64,000 nucleotides of DNA from Gallaecimonas sp. GXIMD4217 (GTDB taxonomy: Bacteria > Pseudomonadota > Gammaproteobacteria > Enterobacterales > Gallaecimonadaceae), in the NCBI RefSeq assembly GCF_038087665.1, contig NZ_CP149925.1, positions 3,038,870 to 3,102,869 on the forward strand, written 5' to 3'. The notes beneath the pieces are model-generated. The model saw only the letters and a program-made list of their open reading frames with translations. It did not search any database and was not told the DNA's origin. Shown here in pieces: positions 21,674 to 56,735 of this stretch (position 1 is the first letter of the stretch; every line of letters starts with the position of its first letter). The translations under genes and the position numbers were made by a program.

Positions 21674-23428
21674 ATGATCCGCATCGCCCTCTCCTTGACC
21701 CTGGCCGCCGCCCTGCTTGGCGGCTGTGCCCAGCTGTCGCAACCCGCCAGGCAGGATGCCGCCCTCAGCCAGCCGGCCCAGGACATGGACGGCCTGATCA
21801 ACGAATACGGCCAGCTTGCCCGCCAGCTCGACGCCCTGGTGGCGGGCCCGGATCATCCCAAGCGCCAGCCAGGCCAGCTCAAGGATCTGTCCCCCCAGGC
21901 CCTGGCGGCGGAAAACGCCCAATGGCAAAGGCTCTACGACCGCCTGAAGGCCATCGACGAGCGGGGGCTGGACGAGCAACAACGCATCAACCTGGCCCTG
22001 CTCCACTACCAGCTCAGGGATCGCCTGGACAGCTACCGCTTCCAGGCCCAGCTGATGCCGCTCAATTCCGAATGGGGCTTCTATGCCGGCCTGGGCGGGC
22101 TCAAGGATCAGTTCCGCTTCCAGCAGGACAGTGACTTCGACCATTACCTGACCGCCCTGGCCGGAGTCGGCCGCCATATGGATCAGCAGATCCACTGGCT
22201 GCGCCAGGGCCTGGCCCAGGGCATCACCCAACCCAAGGTAGTGCTCCAGGGCCTGCCCGACACCATCCGCGCCTACATGAAGGAAGACGACTTCCTGGCT
22301 CCCTTCGACCAGCTGCCGGAGGCCGACCCTCGCCGCCGGCAGGCCAGGACCCTGGTCCGGGACCAGGTGCTGCCGGCCTTTAAGCGACTGCTGGATTTCG
22401 CCGAACGGGAATACCTTCCCGGCGCCCGCACCAGCATCGGCCTGAGCCAGGTGCCGAAGGGCCGTGACTGGTACGCCAACCGGGTCCGCCACTTCACCAC
22501 CCTGGACATGACCCCTGAGCAGGTGCACCAGCTGGGCCTGAAGGAGGTGGCGCGGATCCGCACCGAGATGGAAGCCATCATTGCCGAACTGGGCTTCGAT
22601 GGCAGCTTCAAGGACTTCACCCATTTCCTGCGCACCGATCCCCGGTTCTACGCCAAGACCCCGCAGCAGCTGCTGGAGAAGGCCGCCTGGCTGGCCAAGG
22701 AGGCGGACGCCCTGCTGCCGCGCTATTTCGGGCTGCTGCCCCGCACCCCCTACGGTGTGGCGCCGGTACCGGCGGCCATCGCCCCCAACTACACAACGGG
22801 CCGGTATTCCGGTCCCAGCCGCGACGATCAGCCGGGCTATTACTGGGTCAACACCTATGCCCTGGATAAGCGCCCGCTTTACGTGCTGCCGTCACTGACC
22901 CTGCACGAGGCGGTACCCGGCCACCACCTGCAGATCTCCCTGACCCGGGAACAGCAGGCCCTGCCGGACTTCCGCCGCCACAGCTACATCAGCGCCTTCG
23001 GCGAAGGCTGGGGACTGTATGCGGAATACCTGGGCGAGGAGGCCGGCTACTACAAGACCCCCTATGAGCGTTTCGGCCGCCTGACCTACGAGATGTGGCG
23101 GGCCTGCCGCCTGGTGGTGGACACCGGCATGCACTGGCTGGGCTGGAGCCGCCAGCAGGCCCAGGACTACATGGCCAGCAACACCGCCCTGTCACTGCAC
23201 AATGTCCGCACCGAGACCGACCGCTACATCTCCTGGCCCGGCCAGGCGCTGTCCTACAAGGTGGGTGAGCTGACCATCAAGCGGCTGCGTCGGCAGGCGG
23301 AGCAGGCCCTGGACGATGACTTCGACATTCGCGCCTTCCACGACGCCGTGCTGGCCAACGGCTCGGTACCGCTGAAGGTGCTGGAGTGGCAGGTGGCGGC
23401 CTATATCGCCAAAGCCAGGGGCGGCTAA
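21674..23428 (+). CDS. DUF885 family lipoprotein, putative metallopeptidase
   Basis: A 584-residue lipoprotein (signal MIRIALSLTLAAALLGGC, lipidated Cys18) of the DUF885 family. The conserved HEAVPGHH motif at residues 411-418 and the downstream SAFGEGWGLYAEYLGEE stretch, which supplies the third ligand Glu, form a gluzincin-like zinc site. Family members are annotated as uncharacterised or Xaa-Pro-type peptidases; substrate specificity is unknown. The start at 21674 is chosen for its AGGAAA ribosome site and proper signal peptide; a frame extension upstream lacks both. It follows tetR on the same strand and has its own terminator. Confidence 0.85.
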   Translation: MIRIALSLTLAAALLGGCAQLSQPARQDAALSQPAQDMDGLINEYGQLARQLDALVAGPDHPKRQPGQLKDLSPQALAAENAQWQRLYDRLKAIDERGLDEQQRINLALLHYQLRDRLDSYRFQAQLMPLNSEWGFYAGLGGLKDQFRFQQDSDFDHYLTALAGVGRHMDQQIHWLRQGLAQGITQPKVVLQGLPDTIRAYMKEDDFLAPFDQLPEADPRRRQARTLVRDQVLPAFKRLLDFAEREYLPGARTSIGLSQVPKGRDWYANRVRHFTTLDMTPEQVHQLGLKEVARIRTEMEAIIAELGFDGSFKDFTHFLRTDPRFYAKTPQQLLEKAAWLAKEADALLPRYFGLLPRTPYGVAPVPAAIAPNYTTGRYSGPSRDDQPGYYWVNTYALDKRPLYVLPSLTLHEAVPGHHLQISLTREQQALPDFRRHSYISAFGEGWGLYAEYLGEEAGYYKTPYERFGRLTYEMWRACRLVVDTGMHWLGWSRQQAQDYMASNTALSLHNVRTETDRYISWPGQALSYKVGELTIKRLRRQAEQALDDDFDIRAFHDAVLANGSVPLKVLEWQVAAYIAKARGG

Positions 23429-23429
23429 G

Positions 23430-23768
23430 TCAGGCCAGGCGGCGATGGAAACGGACCTCGACCGGGGTCCGTTTTTTTATGGCAGAGCCAAGGCCCCAGC
23501 TGAGCCCGGCGCCCAGCAGCAGGCTCAGCACCAGGGCCGGCCAGTCCGGGGCCGCCAGCAGCGAAGGCAGGGTCAGGGAGGGCAGGCCCAGGGCCAGCAG
23601 GGCGCGCAGCGCCTGCCAGACCAGCAGGAACAGCAACGCCAGGCTCCAGGGCCTGTGCATCAGGCCCTGACGGTAGCGGATGCTGGCCTGGCAGCCATGA
23701 CAGAGGCACTCGCCCATGGGGATATGGGCACCGCAATGGGGGCAGACGAGGGGGCTGGCGCTGGACAA
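23430..23768 (-). CDS. Zinc-ribbon membrane protein, unknown function
   Basis: A 112-residue protein with an N-terminal zinc-ribbon (CPHCGAHIPMGECLCHGC, paired Cys-x2-Cys motifs) followed by two hydrophobic segments (LALLFLLVWQALRALLALG and WPALVLSLLLGAGLSWGLG) and a basic tail. The only start upstream of the CPHC motif that I can see is a TTG at 23768; the next Met lies inside the ribbon. Its 3' end contains the terminator of the convergent DUF885 gene. The function is unknown. Confidence 0.65.
   Translation of the reverse strand: MSSASPLVCPHCGAHIPMGECLCHGCQASIRYRQGLMHRPWSLALLFLLVWQALRALLALGLPSLTLPSLLAAPDWPALVLSLLLGAGLSWGLGSAIKKRTPVEVRFHRRLA
23449..23478 (+). terminator. Terminator of the DUF885 gene, inside the convergent gene
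   Basis: ACGGACC (23451-23457) pairs with GGTCCGT (23466-23472) around an eight-base loop, followed by a run of seven T. It is about 22 bases after the DUF885 stop and lies within the 3' coding end of the zinc-ribbon gene on the other strand. Confidence 0.85.
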
Positions 23769-23826
23769 TTGGGCAGAAACTTATGTTATGCAGATGTATC
23801 TGCCTAGTTTCTCCGAAAGCCCGCCC

Positions 23827-23955
23827 TCAAGGCAAGGGCGACAGCCGCCCGGCGTCCGGATCCCAGCCCCACAGCCGGCCCAAGACGGTGAGCATAAGCA
23901 CCTCGCCGCCCTGTACCAGCCAGACGGCCATATCGCTGTTGGTAATGTGCAGCAT
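23827..23955 (-). CDS. Possible 42-residue small protein
   Basis: A 43-codon frame encodes a hydrophobic peptide starting MLHITNSDMAVWLVQGG and ending WDPDAGRLSPLP. It sits in line with the neighbouring minus-strand genes, filling an otherwise empty 236-base gap. No ribosome-binding site is evident before the ATG, and I know no family. Evidence is only the intact frame and non-random composition. Confidence 0.25.
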   Translation of the reverse strand: MLHITNSDMAVWLVQGGEVLMLTVLGRLWGWDPDAGRLSPLP

Positions 23956-24004
23956 GGCAATATCTAACCGACTGATTGGCAATCCACTTTAGGTCAGCAT
24001 GGGG

Positions 24005-24313
24005 TCAGTGCCAATCCTCGCACCTGGCCTTTTCACCATCGCCGCTGGCCTTGCCGCCGGCGGCCCGGCACAGCAGCTTGAACAGGTTGCAGCTGGCGCC
24101 GCTTTCGATGCGCTCGTACTCGCAGCAGACGGCGCCCTCGCAGGCCTTGAGCCTGTAGCGGGGCGGCTGGGGATCGCCTGGCCGCCAGTCCAGCTTCTCC
24201 AATGAGCTGGGCACGGGCTTGAGGCGGCTCAGCATGTCCTCGGCACTGGCCCTGTCATGGGCCAGCAGCATGGGGGAAAGCAGCAGGGACAGCAGCAACA
24301 GGGCGGGACGCAT
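24005..24313 (-). CDS. Cysteine-rich secreted protein, unknown function
   Basis: A 102-residue protein with a signal peptide (MRPALLLLSLLLSPMLLA) and a mature part containing six cysteines (Lys-Ala-Cys, Val-Cys-Cys, Ser-Cys, Leu-Cys, Arg-Cys) within its last 50 residues. Six periplasmic cysteines imply disulfides. It lies 30 bases downstream of a CxxC thioredoxin-fold gene, so it may be a folding client or partner. I recognise no family. Confidence 0.6.
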   Translation of the reverse strand: MRPALLLLSLLLSPMLLAHDRASAEDMLSRLKPVPSSLEKLDWRPGDPQPPRYRLKACEGAVCCEYERIESGASCNLFKLLCRAAGGKASGDGEKARCEDWH

Positions 24314-24343
24314 GGCGGTGGCCTCCAGGGGGTTTTGCTTCCA

Positions 24344-25456
24344 TTATGGCGCCTCCAGCAGCGCCTGGATGTTCTCCCAGGGCTGGTAGCCGCTCAGCAC
24401 CTGGCCCTTGACCCAGATCACCGGCGGCCGATCCAGGCCCAGCTCGCGCACCTGCTGCCAGCTGGCCAGCAGCGCCTGATCCAGTTGCGGGCAGGCGAAG
24501 GGGGGCGGCGTCTGGGGCCTTGGCCTGGCCAGCCAGTGCCGGCGCTCGGCGACGGGGTCGGCGGCGCACAGCACCCGGCCGGCCAGGGCCCGGCCGACGG
24601 GATCCGGCCCGGGCAGGTATTGATGGAGGCGCCAGTCCAGCGCCGCCGGCGCCTGTTGCGCTATCTCGGCGATCAGCGCCCGGCAGCTCTGGCAGCTGAG
24701 GTTGCTGAACACCACCAGCTCGGCGCCCTGGCGCCAGCGCTCGGGCAATTCGATGCGGGGCGGCTGGGGCATCTGGTTCAGCCAGCGGACCTTCACCTTG
24801 GCCTTCTCCCGGGCAAGCTGCCTGGCCTTGGCCTCATAGCCGCGGGTAAAGGCCAGGAAACTGCGCACCTGCTGCTTGCTGAGCTGCTTGTCCGGATGGG
24901 CGGCAAGGTAGGCATTCACCTCGGCGTCGGACACCGGCTTGTCGAAACCGGCCTGCCACTGGGCCGTGCTGACCCCCTGGCGCTTGGCCAGGCGGGTCAC
25001 AAGTTTGGCCTGCAGCCAGTCGTCGAATCTGGCCTGGCGGGCCAGCTGCAGCTCGCCCCTGAGCCGGTACAGGGGCAGGGCCCGCGTCGCCTCGACCCGA
25101 CCGGCAGTGAAGCCCTGCTCGCCGAGCCGGCATAAGAGCTGTTCGGCCGGCAACGGCCGGTCCAGCTGCTCGCCCGCGGCCAGCAGCTCTACCCCGGCCA
25201 GGGCCTGCTGGCCCTGGCGCCAGGCAAGCAGGCCCTGCTGGAAGTCCTTGCCCTGGGCCCTGGCGCCCCGGCCGGCCAGCGCCAGGCAGGCCTCCTTCAG
25301 GTGGCGGGCGATATCGCCGCGGATGGCCCCGACCTTGTCGGGCATGGCGGCATCCAGGGTGGCGCTGTCCAGGATTTCGCCATCCACCTGCACCAGGGGC
25401 CAGGCCAGGGCATGGAGCGGCAGCAGGCAAAGCAGCAGCCTAGCGGCCCAGATCAT
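24344..25456 (-). CDS. Periplasmic DsbG-like thioredoxin-fold protein with helical N domain
   Basis: A 370-residue exported protein (signal MIWAARLLLCLLPLHALAW). The C-terminal third contains a CxxC active site, Cys-Gln-Ser-Cys at residues 255-258, in VVFSNLSCQSCRALI, and a cis-Pro-like PPVIWVKG loop, as in DsbA/DsbC/DsbG-type thiol oxidoreductases. The middle (about 190-240) has a helical stretch with VSDAEVNAYLAAHPDK that resembles SurA-type chaperone helices. The start at 25456 has GGGGGAG five bases upstream. It overlaps the preceding gene by 17 bases. A role in disulfide handling or thiol quality control is inferred; the exact activity is unknown. Confidence 0.7.
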   Translation of the reverse strand: MIWAARLLLCLLPLHALAWPLVQVDGEILDSATLDAAMPDKVGAIRGDIARHLKEACLALAGRGARAQGKDFQQGLLAWRQGQQALAGVELLAAGEQLDRPLPAEQLLCRLGEQGFTAGRVEATRALPLYRLRGELQLARQARFDDWLQAKLVTRLAKRQGVSTAQWQAGFDKPVSDAEVNAYLAAHPDKQLSKQQVRSFLAFTRGYEAKARQLAREKAKVKVRWLNQMPQPPRIELPERWRQGAELVVFSNLSCQSCRALIAEIAQQAPAALDWRLHQYLPGPDPVGRALAGRVLCAADPVAERRHWLARPRPQTPPPFACPQLDQALLASWQQVRELGLDRPPVIWVKGQVLSGYQPWENIQALLEAP

Positions 25457-26009
25457 GGATCTCCCCCGCATCCTGGTCGGCCAGGGCAATGAAGTCGCTG
25501 AGGCTGATGCCGGCCACCTGCCGGAAGCGGCTGTCGGCCATCAGTACCTGGGTCTGGGCGGCCTGGCGTTCCCGCCAGTGGTTGAGATCGTTGTCGTCCG
25601 GGGTGCCCAGTTCGTTCATGCGCCTGTTGGCGCTGGCCAGGCCGTCCAGGGCCTGGGTGAGGGCCTCCAGCTCCTCTTCCTTGAGACGCTTGTCGAGGTG
25701 TTTGGCAAAGAGCGCCGCCATGGCGGCCTTCACCGCCGCCCGCTCCACCAGCTGGCCATCGGTGGCCTGCTCGGGGCTGAGCAGGGATGACAGGCTGTCT
25801 TTAAGGCTGGTGCCGGGAGCCTGCTCGGCCAGGGGTTCGGCCGGCACATTCACCTTCTGGACGGCGGTCACGGCCGCCGGCGAGGCCTGGGGGGCCAGGC
25901 TGACCACCCGGGTTCGGGTCACCAGCTTGGCCTGCTGCGGGCCTAGCCAGTACATCAATGCCGCGCCCAGACACAGGCCCAGCAAGAAGATCGAAACATG
26001 CTTCCACAT
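25440..26009 (-). CDS. Membrane-anchored helical protein, unknown function
   Basis: A 189-residue protein with a single N-terminal span (VSIFLLGLCLGAALMYWLG) and a long, charged helical periplasmic region (AAMAALFAKHLDKRLKEEELEALTQALDG). The ATG at 26009 replaces a TTG two codons upstream. The coding end overlaps the start of the DsbG-like gene by 17 bases, so the two are translationally coupled and probably work together. No known domain is evident. Confidence 0.6.
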   Translation of the reverse strand: MWKHVSIFLLGLCLGAALMYWLGPQQAKLVTRTRVVSLAPQASPAAVTAVQKVNVPAEPLAEQAPGTSLKDSLSSLLSPEQATDGQLVERAAVKAAMAALFAKHLDKRLKEEELEALTQALDGLASANRRMNELGTPDDNDLNHWRERQAAQTQVLMADSRFRQVAGISLSDFIALADQDAGEIHDLGR

Positions 26010-26016
26010 AGGCAAC

Positions 26017-26039
26017 AAGGGGGAGCCAGGCTCCCCCTT
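26017..26039 (-). terminator. Hairpin terminator between lipase gene and thiol cluster
   Basis: AAGGGGGAGCC (26017-26027) and GGCTCCCCCTT (26029-26039) form a near-perfect 11-base inverted repeat with a one-base centre. It starts just after the lipase stop codon. The T tract is weak (TTGTTG), so termination may be partial. Its 3' arm lies only eight bases before the next gene's start, so it could also mask that start. Confidence 0.65.
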
Positions 26040-26041
26040 CC

Positions 26042-26938
26042 TCAGTTGCTGTAGGCGGCGAAGGGGCCGTCATTCCAGGTGTATTGGGCGATCTTGGCCT
26101 GGCCATCCGCGGACGGATGGAAGCAGTCAAGGGTGGACAGGTCCGCCACCCGCATCTCGTCGATGCGCTCCTCCAGCACCCTGGTGTAGTCGATGAAGAC
26201 GGTCTTGCCGTTGGCGGCCATTTCCGCCTTCACCTGATCCACCACCTCGCCTATGGCCTGGTTGTAGCGGTAGTTCATGTCCGCCACGTAGGCGCGCTCG
26301 GCCTCGCTCAGGTCGTTGTCGGTCATGGCCTCGCAGATGGGATAGATGATGTTGTTCCACAGGCTGGGGCAGCTGACGATGCCCAGGGCCGTGGCCTGCA
26401 GGCCCACCTGGTAGAAGCCGTGAATATCGGGAATGGCCGCCACGGCAACGGTGCCGCCGTCGTTGATCTTGTTGGCGATGGCGGACAGGCCCCGGTAATA
26501 ACGGTTCTTGAACTCATCCACCGGGATCAGCTCCGCCGGGCTGGATACGCAGACGTCATTGGCGCCGGACAGCAGGGTGACATAATCGACGGCGGCGCCG
26601 TCCATGCCCTGGGCCTGGTCGAGGATGGAATCCACCTGGGAGCCGGTGATGGCGGCCAGGGTGTTGCTGCGACCGCTGTCACCGAAGTTGGCGTCGATGC
26701 GCTGGTTGTGGGAGCGGATGTCCGGGGTGAAGGTCATCCATTGCCACCAGCCATGGTAGCCGGCGGACCAGCTCAGGCTCTGGTTGTCGCCGGGCATGCG
26801 GGCATCGAAGGCCCGGGTGATGGAATCGCCTATGGCGTATTGGCGTTTGGGCGCACGCTGGCCGTCCTCCAGGGCCAGAGCGCTGGCACTGACGACGGCA
26901 CAGGCGAGTACCGCAAGTGTCGTTTTCTTGCTGATCAT
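26042..26938 (-). CDS. Secreted SGNH/GDSL family lipase/esterase
   Basis: A 298-residue exported hydrolase (signal ending SASALA). Block I GDS is in AIGDSITRAFD with Ser39. Block III is GANDV and block V is DCFHPS with Asp271 and His274 as the remaining triad members. These are the defining motifs of SGNH lipases and esterases. The mature protein has cysteines in VCVSS, VSCPS and PICEA that could pair. Similar proteins include secreted lysophospholipase or lipase enzymes; the substrate is not deducible. Confidence 0.88.
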   Translation of the reverse strand: MISKKTTLAVLACAVVSASALALEDGQRAPKRQYAIGDSITRAFDARMPGDNQSLSWSAGYHGWWQWMTFTPDIRSHNQRIDANFGDSGRSNTLAAITGSQVDSILDQAQGMDGAAVDYVTLLSGANDVCVSSPAELIPVDEFKNRYYRGLSAIANKINDGGTVAVAAIPDIHGFYQVGLQATALGIVSCPSLWNNIIYPICEAMTDNDLSEAERAYVADMNYRYNQAIGEVVDQVKAEMAANGKTVFIDYTRVLEERIDEMRVADLSTLDCFHPSADGQAKIAQYTWNDGPFAAYSN

Positions 26939-27167
26939 GGGATGTCCCCTATTTGATTTGTTCTTAGGCGGCCCACTTATTGCCTGTGGGCTCTGCTTAC
27001 CGGCTCAGGCTGCATGGGCCGGACCTCGGATGTGCGAGGTCCGACAAGAATAGAACAGTCGTCACAAAGTTGCAGCAAGATAGGACACGTTAAGGGACAT
27101 TGACGGCATGTTCGATGCGGCTCGAAACGTTTTCCTGCATTTTAAACGGCAGGCTCGTTTAAAATGC
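26939..27167. other. Intergenic region with three hairpins
   Basis: This 229-base gap between clsC and the lipase gene holds three inverted repeats: GCATTTTAAAC (27137-27147) with GTTTAAAATGC (27157-27167); CGGACCTCG (27020-27028) with CGAGGTCCG (27035-27043); and GCCCAC (26971-26976) with GTGGGC (26986-26991). The first begins directly after the clsC stop and may end its transcript. The others could be leader structure of the lipase mRNA. No gene is evident. Confidence 0.5.
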
Positions 27168-28655
27168 CTAGAGCTGGTTCCTGACCGGTAGCCAGGACAG
27201 CAGCCAGGCCAACAGACGCCGCCACAGGGAGCTCTGTGGCTCAACGGCGCTGGTGAACAGGCTGCCATTGAAACGCCGCCACCAGATCAGATCATGGCCG
27301 TCCAGCCTGGGTTGCCAGCAGTGGCCCGACCTGATCATGGCCCTGGCCAGAACGGTGACTTCCCGGGCCAGAGGTTCACAATCGATTAACAACCCCATCT
27401 CCGTATTGATGAAGATGGAGCGGGGATCCATGTTGAAGGTGCCGATATAGAGGTGGCTGCGGTCGTAGACCAGCAGCTTGGCATGCAGGCTGGAATGGGA
27501 GCCCTCGGTCTTGCCGCCGGGCAGGGGCGCGTCCCGGGCCAGCTCGTTCAGCTCCACCCCGGCGCTGAGCAGGGCCGGGCGCTGATCCTGATAGCCGGTA
27601 TGGGCCATGATCACATCGTTGGCGGCCAGGGAGTTGGTGACGAAGCGGGTCCTGACCCCCCGCCCGGTCTGGATGCCGAGGCGGGCGATCAGATCCTGGG
27701 AAGGCACCAGGTAGGGGCTGAACACCAGCAGCTGTTTGCGGGCCTGCTGGGCCAGGCGCGACAGCACCAGGGCGGTGCTGGAGCCGGCCCGGCGCCGAAA
27801 GCGCCGCACCTTGTGGGGCTTGTCGTAGATCACCCTGGCCTGGCCCGGCAGCAGGCGCCCTTCCAGTGGCGAAGAGGGCAGCCGCGCCAGCAGCGCCCGG
27901 CAATGGGGCTTGTCGCGGAATTCCCTGAGGCGGCGAAAGGCCAGCTTGACCTCGGCCCCTATGGGCCGCAGCAGGATCAGCCTGGATACCGGCACCGACC
28001 ATTCGCAGTTGAAGAACAGGTCAAAGGCCTTGATCACCTCGTCGACGAAATCCCCCAGGGCCAGCACGTCCGTGTCCAGGAAATTGCGCCTGGGATGGAG
28101 GCCGAAATACTCGTCGCCGACGTTGCGACCGCCGATGATCACCACCTCGCCGTCGACCACCAGGGCCTTGTTGTGCATGCGGTGATTGGCCCGGGAGAAG
28201 TCCCAAAGCCATTCCAGGGGCCGGGTGATGGGGGTCAGCACCCGGCTGCCAAAGGGGTTGAACAGGCGGATATGGATGTTGGGGTGGGCATTGATGCGGG
28301 CGATGGCGGGATCGTCATTGGTGTGGATGTCGTCCACCAGCAGTCGCACCCGCACGCCGCGGTCGGCGGCGTCCACCAGGGCCGACAGCAGCAGCTGCCC
28401 GGAGCTGTCGGTCTTCCACTGGTAGTACTGGGCATCGATGCTGACCTGGGCCTGCTCGATCAGCGCCAGGCGTACCGCCAGGGCCTCCTTGCCGTCCGCC
28501 AGCAACCTGAACCCTTCCCCCAGGCGCCGGCGCCAATGGCGCTGGTCGTGGGGCGGCAGGGCCGCCATGGGTTCGCGGGCAAATCGCGGCACCCTGTTGG
28601 CCGCGCCGGCCACCACCAGCGACAAGGACGTCAGCCACCACCTTAATCCGCTCAT
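27168..28655 (-). CDS. clsC: ClsC-like phospholipase D family cardiolipin synthase
   Basis: A 495-residue protein with two HKD active-site motifs, one in [11 protein letters not shown] (His161) and one in [10 protein letters not shown] (His391), the mark of the phospholipase D superfamily. The N terminus contains a short membrane-associated segment ([18 protein letters not shown]), and the middle includes [25 protein letters not shown], typical of ClsC/YmdC. Members transfer phosphatidyl groups to make cardiolipin. The assignment to the ClsC branch is by pattern; no ymdB partner is present. A short intergenic interval separates it from the divergent SulP gene. Confidence 0.82.
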
Positions 28656-56408: not shown

Positions 56409-56735
56409 ATGAGCGACAAAATTGTTCACCTCAGCGACGACAGCTTTGAAAGCGACGTACTGAACGCCGACAGCCCCGTGCTGGTGGATTTCTGGGCCGA
56501 GTGGTGTGGTCCCTGCAAGATGATCGCCCCCGTCCTGGACGATATCGCTGAGGAATATGCTGGCCGCCTGACCGTTGCCAAGCTGAACATCGACCAGAAC
56601 TCCGACACGCCGCCCAAGTTCGGCATCCGTGGCATCCCCACCCTGCTGCTGTTCAAGGGTGGCCAGGTTGCCGCCACCAAGGTCGGCGCCCTGTCCAAGA
56701 CCCAGCTGAAAGAGTTCCTGGACGAAAACATCTGA
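56409..56735 (+). CDS. trxA: Thioredoxin 1
   Basis: Thioredoxin reduces protein disulfides in the cytoplasm. The 108-residue protein has the active site WCGPC (Cys33, Cys36) within [14 protein letters not shown], then [18 protein letters not shown] (cis-Pro) and a C-terminal helix. Its length is the same as the E. coli protein, and rho lies next downstream, as in related genomes. Confidence 0.98.

Follow-up and report, generated by a model that had tools for sequence, protein, structure and literature searches.

A DsbC-class thioredoxin domain on a helical module in Gallaecimonas sp. GXIMD4217: a candidate accessory envelope folding cassette

Related envelope systems and layout of the locus

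Five groups of described proteins come close to the locus analysed here, namely DsbC/DsbG, ScsC, SurA/PrsA/PpiD, DsbL/DsbI and Lif. ScsC has an N-terminal oligomerisation region; SurA begins with short strands, continues with helices and ends in a long one; DsbL/DsbI is an oxidase pair of the DsbA/DsbB type; and Lif is a membrane-anchored lipase foldase with an anchor, a linker and a helical domain, the partners of which are alpha/beta-hydrolase lipases. Denoncin 2010, as its title has it, reportedly treats DsbC, SurA and DsbA on LptD. The locus is a block of four minus-strand genes (P0001 to P0004) in a stretch of 64,000 nucleotides from Gallaecimonas sp. GXIMD4217 (NCBI RefSeq assembly GCF_038087665.1, contig NZ_CP149925.1, positions 3,038,870 to 3,102,869), which as a whole is called the window and to which the plain coordinates refer. 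Its central product, P0002, very probably carries a thioredoxin domain of the DsbC/DsbG class. The features of the block were as follows.

26042-26938, minus: P0004, 298 residues; SGNH/GDSL hydrolase with a signal-like start and four mature cysteines, a possible client
26017-26039, minus: perfect inverted repeat with 11-base arms and a one-base spacer, between the P0004 stop and the P0001 start
25440-26009, minus: P0001, 189 residues; membrane anchor (helix 2-21), low-confidence linker and helices 85-187
24344-25456, minus: P0002, 370 residues; probably exported thiol-disulfide oxidoreductase with a helical N-terminal module and a DsbC-type thioredoxin domain
24746-25402, minus: helical module of P0002 (residues 19-237), from the predicted model, with marginal SurA/PrsA likeness
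24347-24739, minus: DsbC/DsbG-class thioredoxin domain of P0002 (residues 240-370), from sequence matches, alignment and model
24683-24694, minus: CQSC active-site motif of P0002 (C255, C258), both cysteines invariant in a 25-row alignment
24005-24313, minus: P0003, 102 residues; signal-like start (by eye) and six cysteines, no relatives found

P0002 was nearest to DsbC and DsbG by sequence, and these were among the nearest proteins by fold. It shares with them the CxxC motif, a further pair of cysteines where DsbC has its second one, the cis-proline and the GY motif. It differs from them in that a helical module of about 220 residues takes the place of a recognisable DsbC_N, the active-site motif reads CQSC where theirs is C-x-(Y/F/W)-C, and proline replaces threonine before the cis-proline. 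A helical N-terminal part before a DsbA/DsbC-like domain is also present in ScsC, one of the top structural matches of P0002; the ScsC stem, however, is much shorter, and no ScsB/ScsD-type neighbour was recognised among the listed open reading frames (ORFs) of the window. In the manner of SurA, PrsA and PpiD, P0002 starts with short strands and continues with helices and a long closing helix, with a marginal profile score, but no parvulin domain was recognised in it and the Pfam and hhalign comparisons were not significant. P0001 resembles Lif in its anchor, linker and helical domain and in being encoded beside a lipase-family enzyme. Being of the DsbC class, P0002 differs from DsbL/DsbI, which is of the DsbA/DsbB type. 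DsbL with AssT is a precedent for an additional Dsb enzyme having a particular substrate (PMC6067686, in the excerpted text).

A preliminary description of this DNA had presented P0001, P0002 and P0003 as three closely packed genes, and their coordinates agreed with it: P0001 and P0002 overlap by 17 bases (25440-25456), and a gap of 30 bases (24314-24343) lies between P0002 and P0003. This close packing suggests co-expression of the trio. Coding signal was estimated as codon-usage log-odds (bits per codon) trained on four window genes (three whole, one partial). The scores were 0.55, 0.55, 0.48 and 0.62 in the own frames of P0001, P0002, P0003 and P0004, respectively (0.56 for the adjoining PLD gene, itself in the training set), against -1.52 to 0.03 in their other five frames (maximum 0.03 for P0001 to P0003), so that the trio consists of real genes rather than chance products of the high GC content (70% in the region). 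Signal sequences and Shine-Dalgarno sites were judged by eye (the former without a predictor run), and Shine-Dalgarno-like sequences were seen ahead of P0002 and P0003. No terminator-like site was reported by a scan of the minus strand from 23400 to 27392, the hairpin at 26017-26039 falling below the T-run limit of the scan.

The likeliest reading of the block is a species-specific accessory Dsb-type envelope folding cassette with its neighbours as clients, one which we hold to be possible and short of probable. As to the export and redox direction of P0002, its clients and any role of P0001, we infer that P0002 would be exported and would serve as an accessory disulfide isomerase or reductase, the thioredoxin domain of which would attack wrong disulfides via Cys255. 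The helical stem, replacing the DsbC dimerisation domain, would hold the substrate and/or oligomerise the enzyme; the likeliest substrates would be the six-cysteine P0003 encoded downstream and the four-cysteine P0004 encoded upstream; and P0001 would hold the reaction at the inner membrane as a tether or scaffold. Local encoding of the clients is a tentative proposal, a little less than probable, and participation of the anchored P0001 is doubtful.

The thioredoxin domain and the helical module of P0002

The C-terminal part of P0002 was found to be a thioredoxin domain with CxxC (CQSC, residues 255-258) and a second cysteine pair, C297/C322, and was modelled confidently (blocks 251-370 at pLDDT 85-94). 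Foldseek against the PDB gave ScsC, DsbG and DsbC chains as the top matches (the first at E 6.9e-6, DsbG at E 1.7e-5 and E. coli DsbC, 1eej, at E 1.2e-4), and a PDB sequence search with P0002 gave V. cholerae DsbC (9dcg, E 0.025). In 360 genomes sampled from the class, a tblastn-type search gave matches in 30 at E <=0.01 (own genome included); among the 29 in other genomes, 27 lay inside residues 211-370 and two (G628, G589) outside. From the matches in the order and class, 29 loci were examined (28 from other genomes and the DsbC of the own genome), five short or off-domain matches (L005, L036, L038, L049, L057) having been excluded beforehand, and CxxC with the DsbC-type layout was present in all 29 (with a Pfam check on the own-genome DsbC only). 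After five near-duplicates (by eye) had been dropped, P0002 and the remaining 24 were aligned; C255, C258, C297, C322, the cis-proline P345, G351, G356 and Y357 were invariant in 25/25 rows. The DsbC-class label of P0002 rests on the tblastn matches, the cysteine pattern and the fold; the cysteine pattern and the sequence matches single out DsbC, which the fold by itself does not. By computation, then, the ORFs are present and P0002 has a DsbC-class domain with both cysteine pairs and no recognisable DsbC_N. The earlier view of the middle protein as a DsbG-like CxxC thioredoxin fold was borne out by the alignment, the Foldseek and VIA-align comparisons and the tblastn-type matches. Since a separate DsbC with DsbC_N (PF10411, E 5.1e-18) is encoded in the own genome, at C1:619 kb, P0002 is an additional enzyme.

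Neither half of P0002 matched DsbC_N (PF10411) at E values up to 10, and the helical module of about 220 residues stands in the place of this dimerisation domain. The model of the module consisted of short strands (22-24 and 27-29) followed by helices to residue 228, with a long helix (194-228) running into the thioredoxin domain; confidence was low in blocks 1-170 (pLDDT <70) and higher in blocks 171-220 (82-95). The preliminary description had likened this region to SurA, and of that claim the helices were supported by the model, whereas the SurA label was weak. Neither SurA_N (Pfam up to E 10, with HMMER filters that discard most weak matches) nor a parvulin PPIase domain was recognised in P0002. 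A profile was made of nine parvulin-type isomerases after excision of their isomerase part. Against it the P0002 half reached 7.0 bits (about residues 137-202), a score matched by 2 of 975 scored shuffles (1000 made), compared with -1.4 bits for the reversed half and 2.7 bits for the helical part of P0001; hhalign gave a probability of 5.5%, on a partly different stretch. A leave-one-out control was uneven: the scores of the nine members ranged from 2.1 to 72.1 bits and fell below 7 for two of them (an Azospirillum protein at 6.0, NifM at 2.1), and the P0002 half, at 1.3 to 11.7 bits, did better than the omitted member once in nine cases (NifM). SurA was absent from the Foldseek and VIA-align rows shown for P0002, in which the thioredoxin domain dominates and for which residues 1-170 were poorly modelled; the N-terminal half gave nothing below E 0.4 in a PDB sequence search and three plasmid records at E 4 to 7. 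Judged by sequence, the SurA/PrsA likeness of the helical half is possible and marginal.

Occurrence in other genomes and the spot after the PLD gene

The searches of the order and class covered samples of genomes, the plasmid records are no census of chromosomes, and the single-protein searches for related loci reach close relatives only. With P0002, at most five candidates were scored per genome in the order and class and all candidates in the genus. P0002 was found in one of five genomes of the genus (its own) and had matches in 5 of 394 sampled genomes of the order (own included), none in genome contigs or viral contigs, and two in plasmid records, both annotated as DsbC family and covering the thioredoxin part only. 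Matches in G628, G589, G513, G575 and G354 were judged to be due to chance (G575 from two internal stops alone); the loci L036, L057 and L027 were read, and L049 in part.

P0001 had matches in three of five genomes of the genus at E <=10 (own included, the other two weak) and in 4 of 148 genomes of the order at E <=0.05 (own included), the others having stops or lying inside a frame of 895 residues; plasmids gave no match. For P0003, matches were obtained in 14 of 295 genomes of the order at E <=0.05 (own included). Nine of the 13 other matches had loci, eight of which were aligned (L067 was not) and six read (L067, L069, L070, L071, L073, L074). Four (L069, L070, L071, L074) were rejected as lying antisense to a long ORF, and four (L066, L067, L068, L072) for internal stops; the four matches without loci were left unread, one of them (G222) being without a stop. 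No credible relative of P0003 was found in the sampled genomes of the order, and no match in plasmids. P0004 occurred in 1 of 394 genomes of the order (its own), 2 of 360 of the class and 1 of 5 of the genus, and in one actinomycete plasmid record; it was not found in genome contigs, nor in viral contigs by an A2 alignment. DNA comparison of the block with plasmids gave no match, and direct repeats or element ends were looked for around it and none stood out.

A distance of 229 bases separates the P0004 gene from the PLD gene upstream, which was kept in 4/4 congeners at 63-68% identity, and the gene directly after the PLD gene differed in 4/4, as listed below.

G001: three tandem copies of one gene of about 177 residues (L020 6543-8116)
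G002: a 206-residue gene on the other strand, with a CocE-like gene similar to that of G003 further on
G003: a 627-residue CocE-like gene (name by eye)
G004: a 122-residue gene, relative of the window gene at 23430-23768

The G004 gene was 46% identical over 46 residues to the window gene at 23430-23768, so the whole intervening block is absent there. None of the four block genes was found in the four congeners, and to all appearance this species either acquired the block recently or is alone in having kept it. The window gene itself (23430-23768, minus) encodes a protein of 112 residues with a zinc-ribbon-like N-terminal start (by eye) and a hydrophobic rest, without a Pfam match at E 0.001.

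A variable position of this kind, with the following gene different in every congener, is expected of a spot that collects unrelated genes. It fits the explanation that P0002 is a general-purpose second DsbC/ScsC-like enzyme, the helical half being an oligomerisation stem and the neighbours unrelated; ScsC was among the best Foldseek and VIA-align matches, some of them aligned from residue 185. However, the overlap of 17 bases and the gap of 30 bases suggest co-expression, and both nearby products other than the anchored one, P0003 and P0004, contain cysteines and have signal-like starts. We regard this explanation as somewhat unlikely.

Neighbouring proteins and weighing of the readings

P0004 was identified as an SGNH/GDSL hydrolase (PF00657, 58.3 bits against a cut-off of 23.6, E 1.6e-15). 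It is encoded directly upstream of the trio, 32 bases before P0001, and had not been linked to it as a client candidate in the preliminary description; a PDB sequence search gave nothing below E 0.4. In an alignment of three sequences (P0004, the G477 homologue and a Nonomuraea protein, the relatives being 28% identical each), the mature cysteines C130 and C202 were kept in 3/3, and C190 and C272 were present together in G477 and absent together from Nonomuraea. Because C190 and C272 are kept or lost together while C130 and C202 are always kept, the alignment suggests interleaved, non-consecutive disulfides, 130-202 and 190-272; further relatives for this pairing were sought in plasmids with no gain. 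Multiple disulfides between non-consecutive cysteines are a case where the DsbD/DsbC pathway matters (PMC3526765, in the part excerpted). P0004 is at least as plausible a client of P0002 as the six-cysteine P0003. The hairpin at 26017-26039 directly follows the P0004 stop, 7 bases before the P0001 start codon, and is terminator-like but with a weak U tract; its fold (71 nt) was -29.2 kcal/mol, with z -2.46 and 4 of 200 shuffles as good. Ahead of the P0004 gene, the leader at 26940-27040 (minus) gave z -2.67 with 3 of 200 shuffles as good and is possibly a regulatory leader or the PLD gene terminator. A stretch of the own genome (C1:2703551-2703760) resembles the P0004 start (27% over 70 residues) with one in-frame stop, possibly by chance.

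The AF2 single-sequence model of P0001 (mean pLDDT 63; blocks 101-180 at 71-87) placed an anchor helix at 2-21 and further helices at 85-187, joined by a long linker of low confidence, in keeping with the anchored helical protein described earlier. No family was above cut-off. The best Foldseek match in the PDB had E 0.15 and none reached E 0.001, VIA-align gave Z at most 6.9 (root-mean-square deviation 4.1, 87 aligned), within the background of unrelated helical bundles, and a PDB sequence search gave nothing below E 0.4. It is unlikely, on this evidence, that P0001 is a small dedicated Lif-like foldase for P0004, with P0002 making the P0004 disulfides and P0003 as an extra. The gene order, P0001 next after P0004, the layout of anchor, linker and all-helical domain, and the four mature cysteines of P0004 agree with it; but P0001 gave no match up to E 1 to PF03280 (Lipase_chap), which we take to be the Lif family profile, no Foldseek match reached E 0.001, the VIA-align Z fell in the range of unrelated bundles, Lif was absent from the fold rows shown for the single-sequence model (50 Foldseek rows, VIA-align), Lif partners are not SGNH enzymes, and the hairpin separates P0004 from P0001. 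In the own genome, the likeness of a possible P0001 paralogue, P0005, was rejected as evidence: one comparison gave BLAST E 0.001, and part of the match ran over a linker rich in Ala, Pro and Gln. The protein at L062:4756-5529 (own genome, C1 about 1.80 Mb) has an anchor-like helix, an Ala/Pro/Gln-rich linker and a helical-looking part, carries a CDSDRLC pair and is weakly similar to P0001, at the same BLAST E of 0.001 from one comparison.

The six cysteines of P0003 (58, 63, 64, 75, 82 and 98) all follow the signal-peptide-like start and lie in the last 45 residues, as the earlier picture of a small six-cysteine protein had it, and by its sequence P0003 is a six-cysteine orphan that is probably exported. 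Profile searches including PHROGs (nothing below E 0.1) gave no family match. A small, six-cysteine, signal-bearing (by eye) orphan beside a Dsb-type enzyme could be a secreted cysteine-stabilised effector or inhibitor peptide, with P0001 and P0002 as export and folding helpers of a bacteriocin-like cassette; no transporter or immunity gene was recognised by eye among the adjoining ORFs, however, nor any family match, and we consider this very unlikely. That the block is decaying and its ORFs are relics is highly improbable, for although P0001 to P0003 have no relatives in the searched collections and CQSC and Pro-Pro are unusual, the frames are intact, their codon usage is on a par with that of core genes, and P0002 retains its catalytic and structural cysteines.

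Several results weigh against the block being an accessory folding cassette with local clients. No full-length relative of P0002 was found in the 394 order and 360 class genomes sampled, the matches being to the thioredoxin domain only. There is no orthologue of P0001 to P0003 in the searched samples and hence zero co-conservation evidence for the trio; in 16 kb around the P0004 homologue of G477, no trio was seen by eye among ORFs of at least 70 residues picked by length. In P0002, serine precedes the second active-site cysteine where an aromatic residue does so in all 24 aligned domains, and proline precedes the cis-proline where all 24 have threonine; to judge from the sequence, these departures may mean that activity is altered or lost. 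VIA-align, in which rows within Z 1 of each other count as ties, placed a thioredoxin-like oxidoreductase first (Z 16.1, root-mean-square deviation 2.4, 146 aligned), with ScsC (Z 15.8, 7.0, 180), V. cholerae DsbC (Z 15.1, 2.6, 137), P. aeruginosa DsbA2 (Z 14.8, 2.7, 141) and DsbG (Z 14.4, 5.5, 166) below it; as far as the predicted model goes, DsbC cannot be told from DsbA-type or ScsC-type proteins by fold alone. The Pfam scores of P0002 were under the curated cut-offs (PF13462, 15.5 bits against 23.2; PF13098, 12.9 bits against 27), so P0002 is divergent within the DsbC class and falls outside the curated families. Ahead of P0001, no Shine-Dalgarno sequence was obvious by eye, which makes the start and expression of P0001 uncertain, the disulfide pairing in P0004 rests on three sequences only, and the hairpin may end or dampen transcription between P0004 and P0001.

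A three-gene system is a plausible hypothesis; no second example was found in the searched samples, and as it stands the locus is a single orphan. If the cassette reading is right, an accessory disulfide-folding cassette would combine holding and isomerase functions in one chain encoded beside its clients, a DsbC catalytic domain would be seen to function without its customary dimerising stem, on a different one, and exported enzymes with interleaved disulfides could be expressed by compact means. A further-reaching form, in which a SurA/PrsA-type cradle is fused to a DsbC-class isomerase as a one-chain foldase, with its own tether and disulfide-rich clients in a lineage-specific cassette, is decidedly unlikely; by analogy, such a foldase would by itself perform the joint task of SurA and DsbC on E. 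coli LptD. Among the papers listed from an open-licence library, judged by titles and abstract openings, none was recognised as describing a DsbC/DsbA-SurA set or fusion or a lipase-DsbC-foldase set. Elsewhere in the window, a further thioredoxin-fold protein is encoded at 56472-56720 (plus; PF13098, 35.6 bits) in an open frame of 116 residues.

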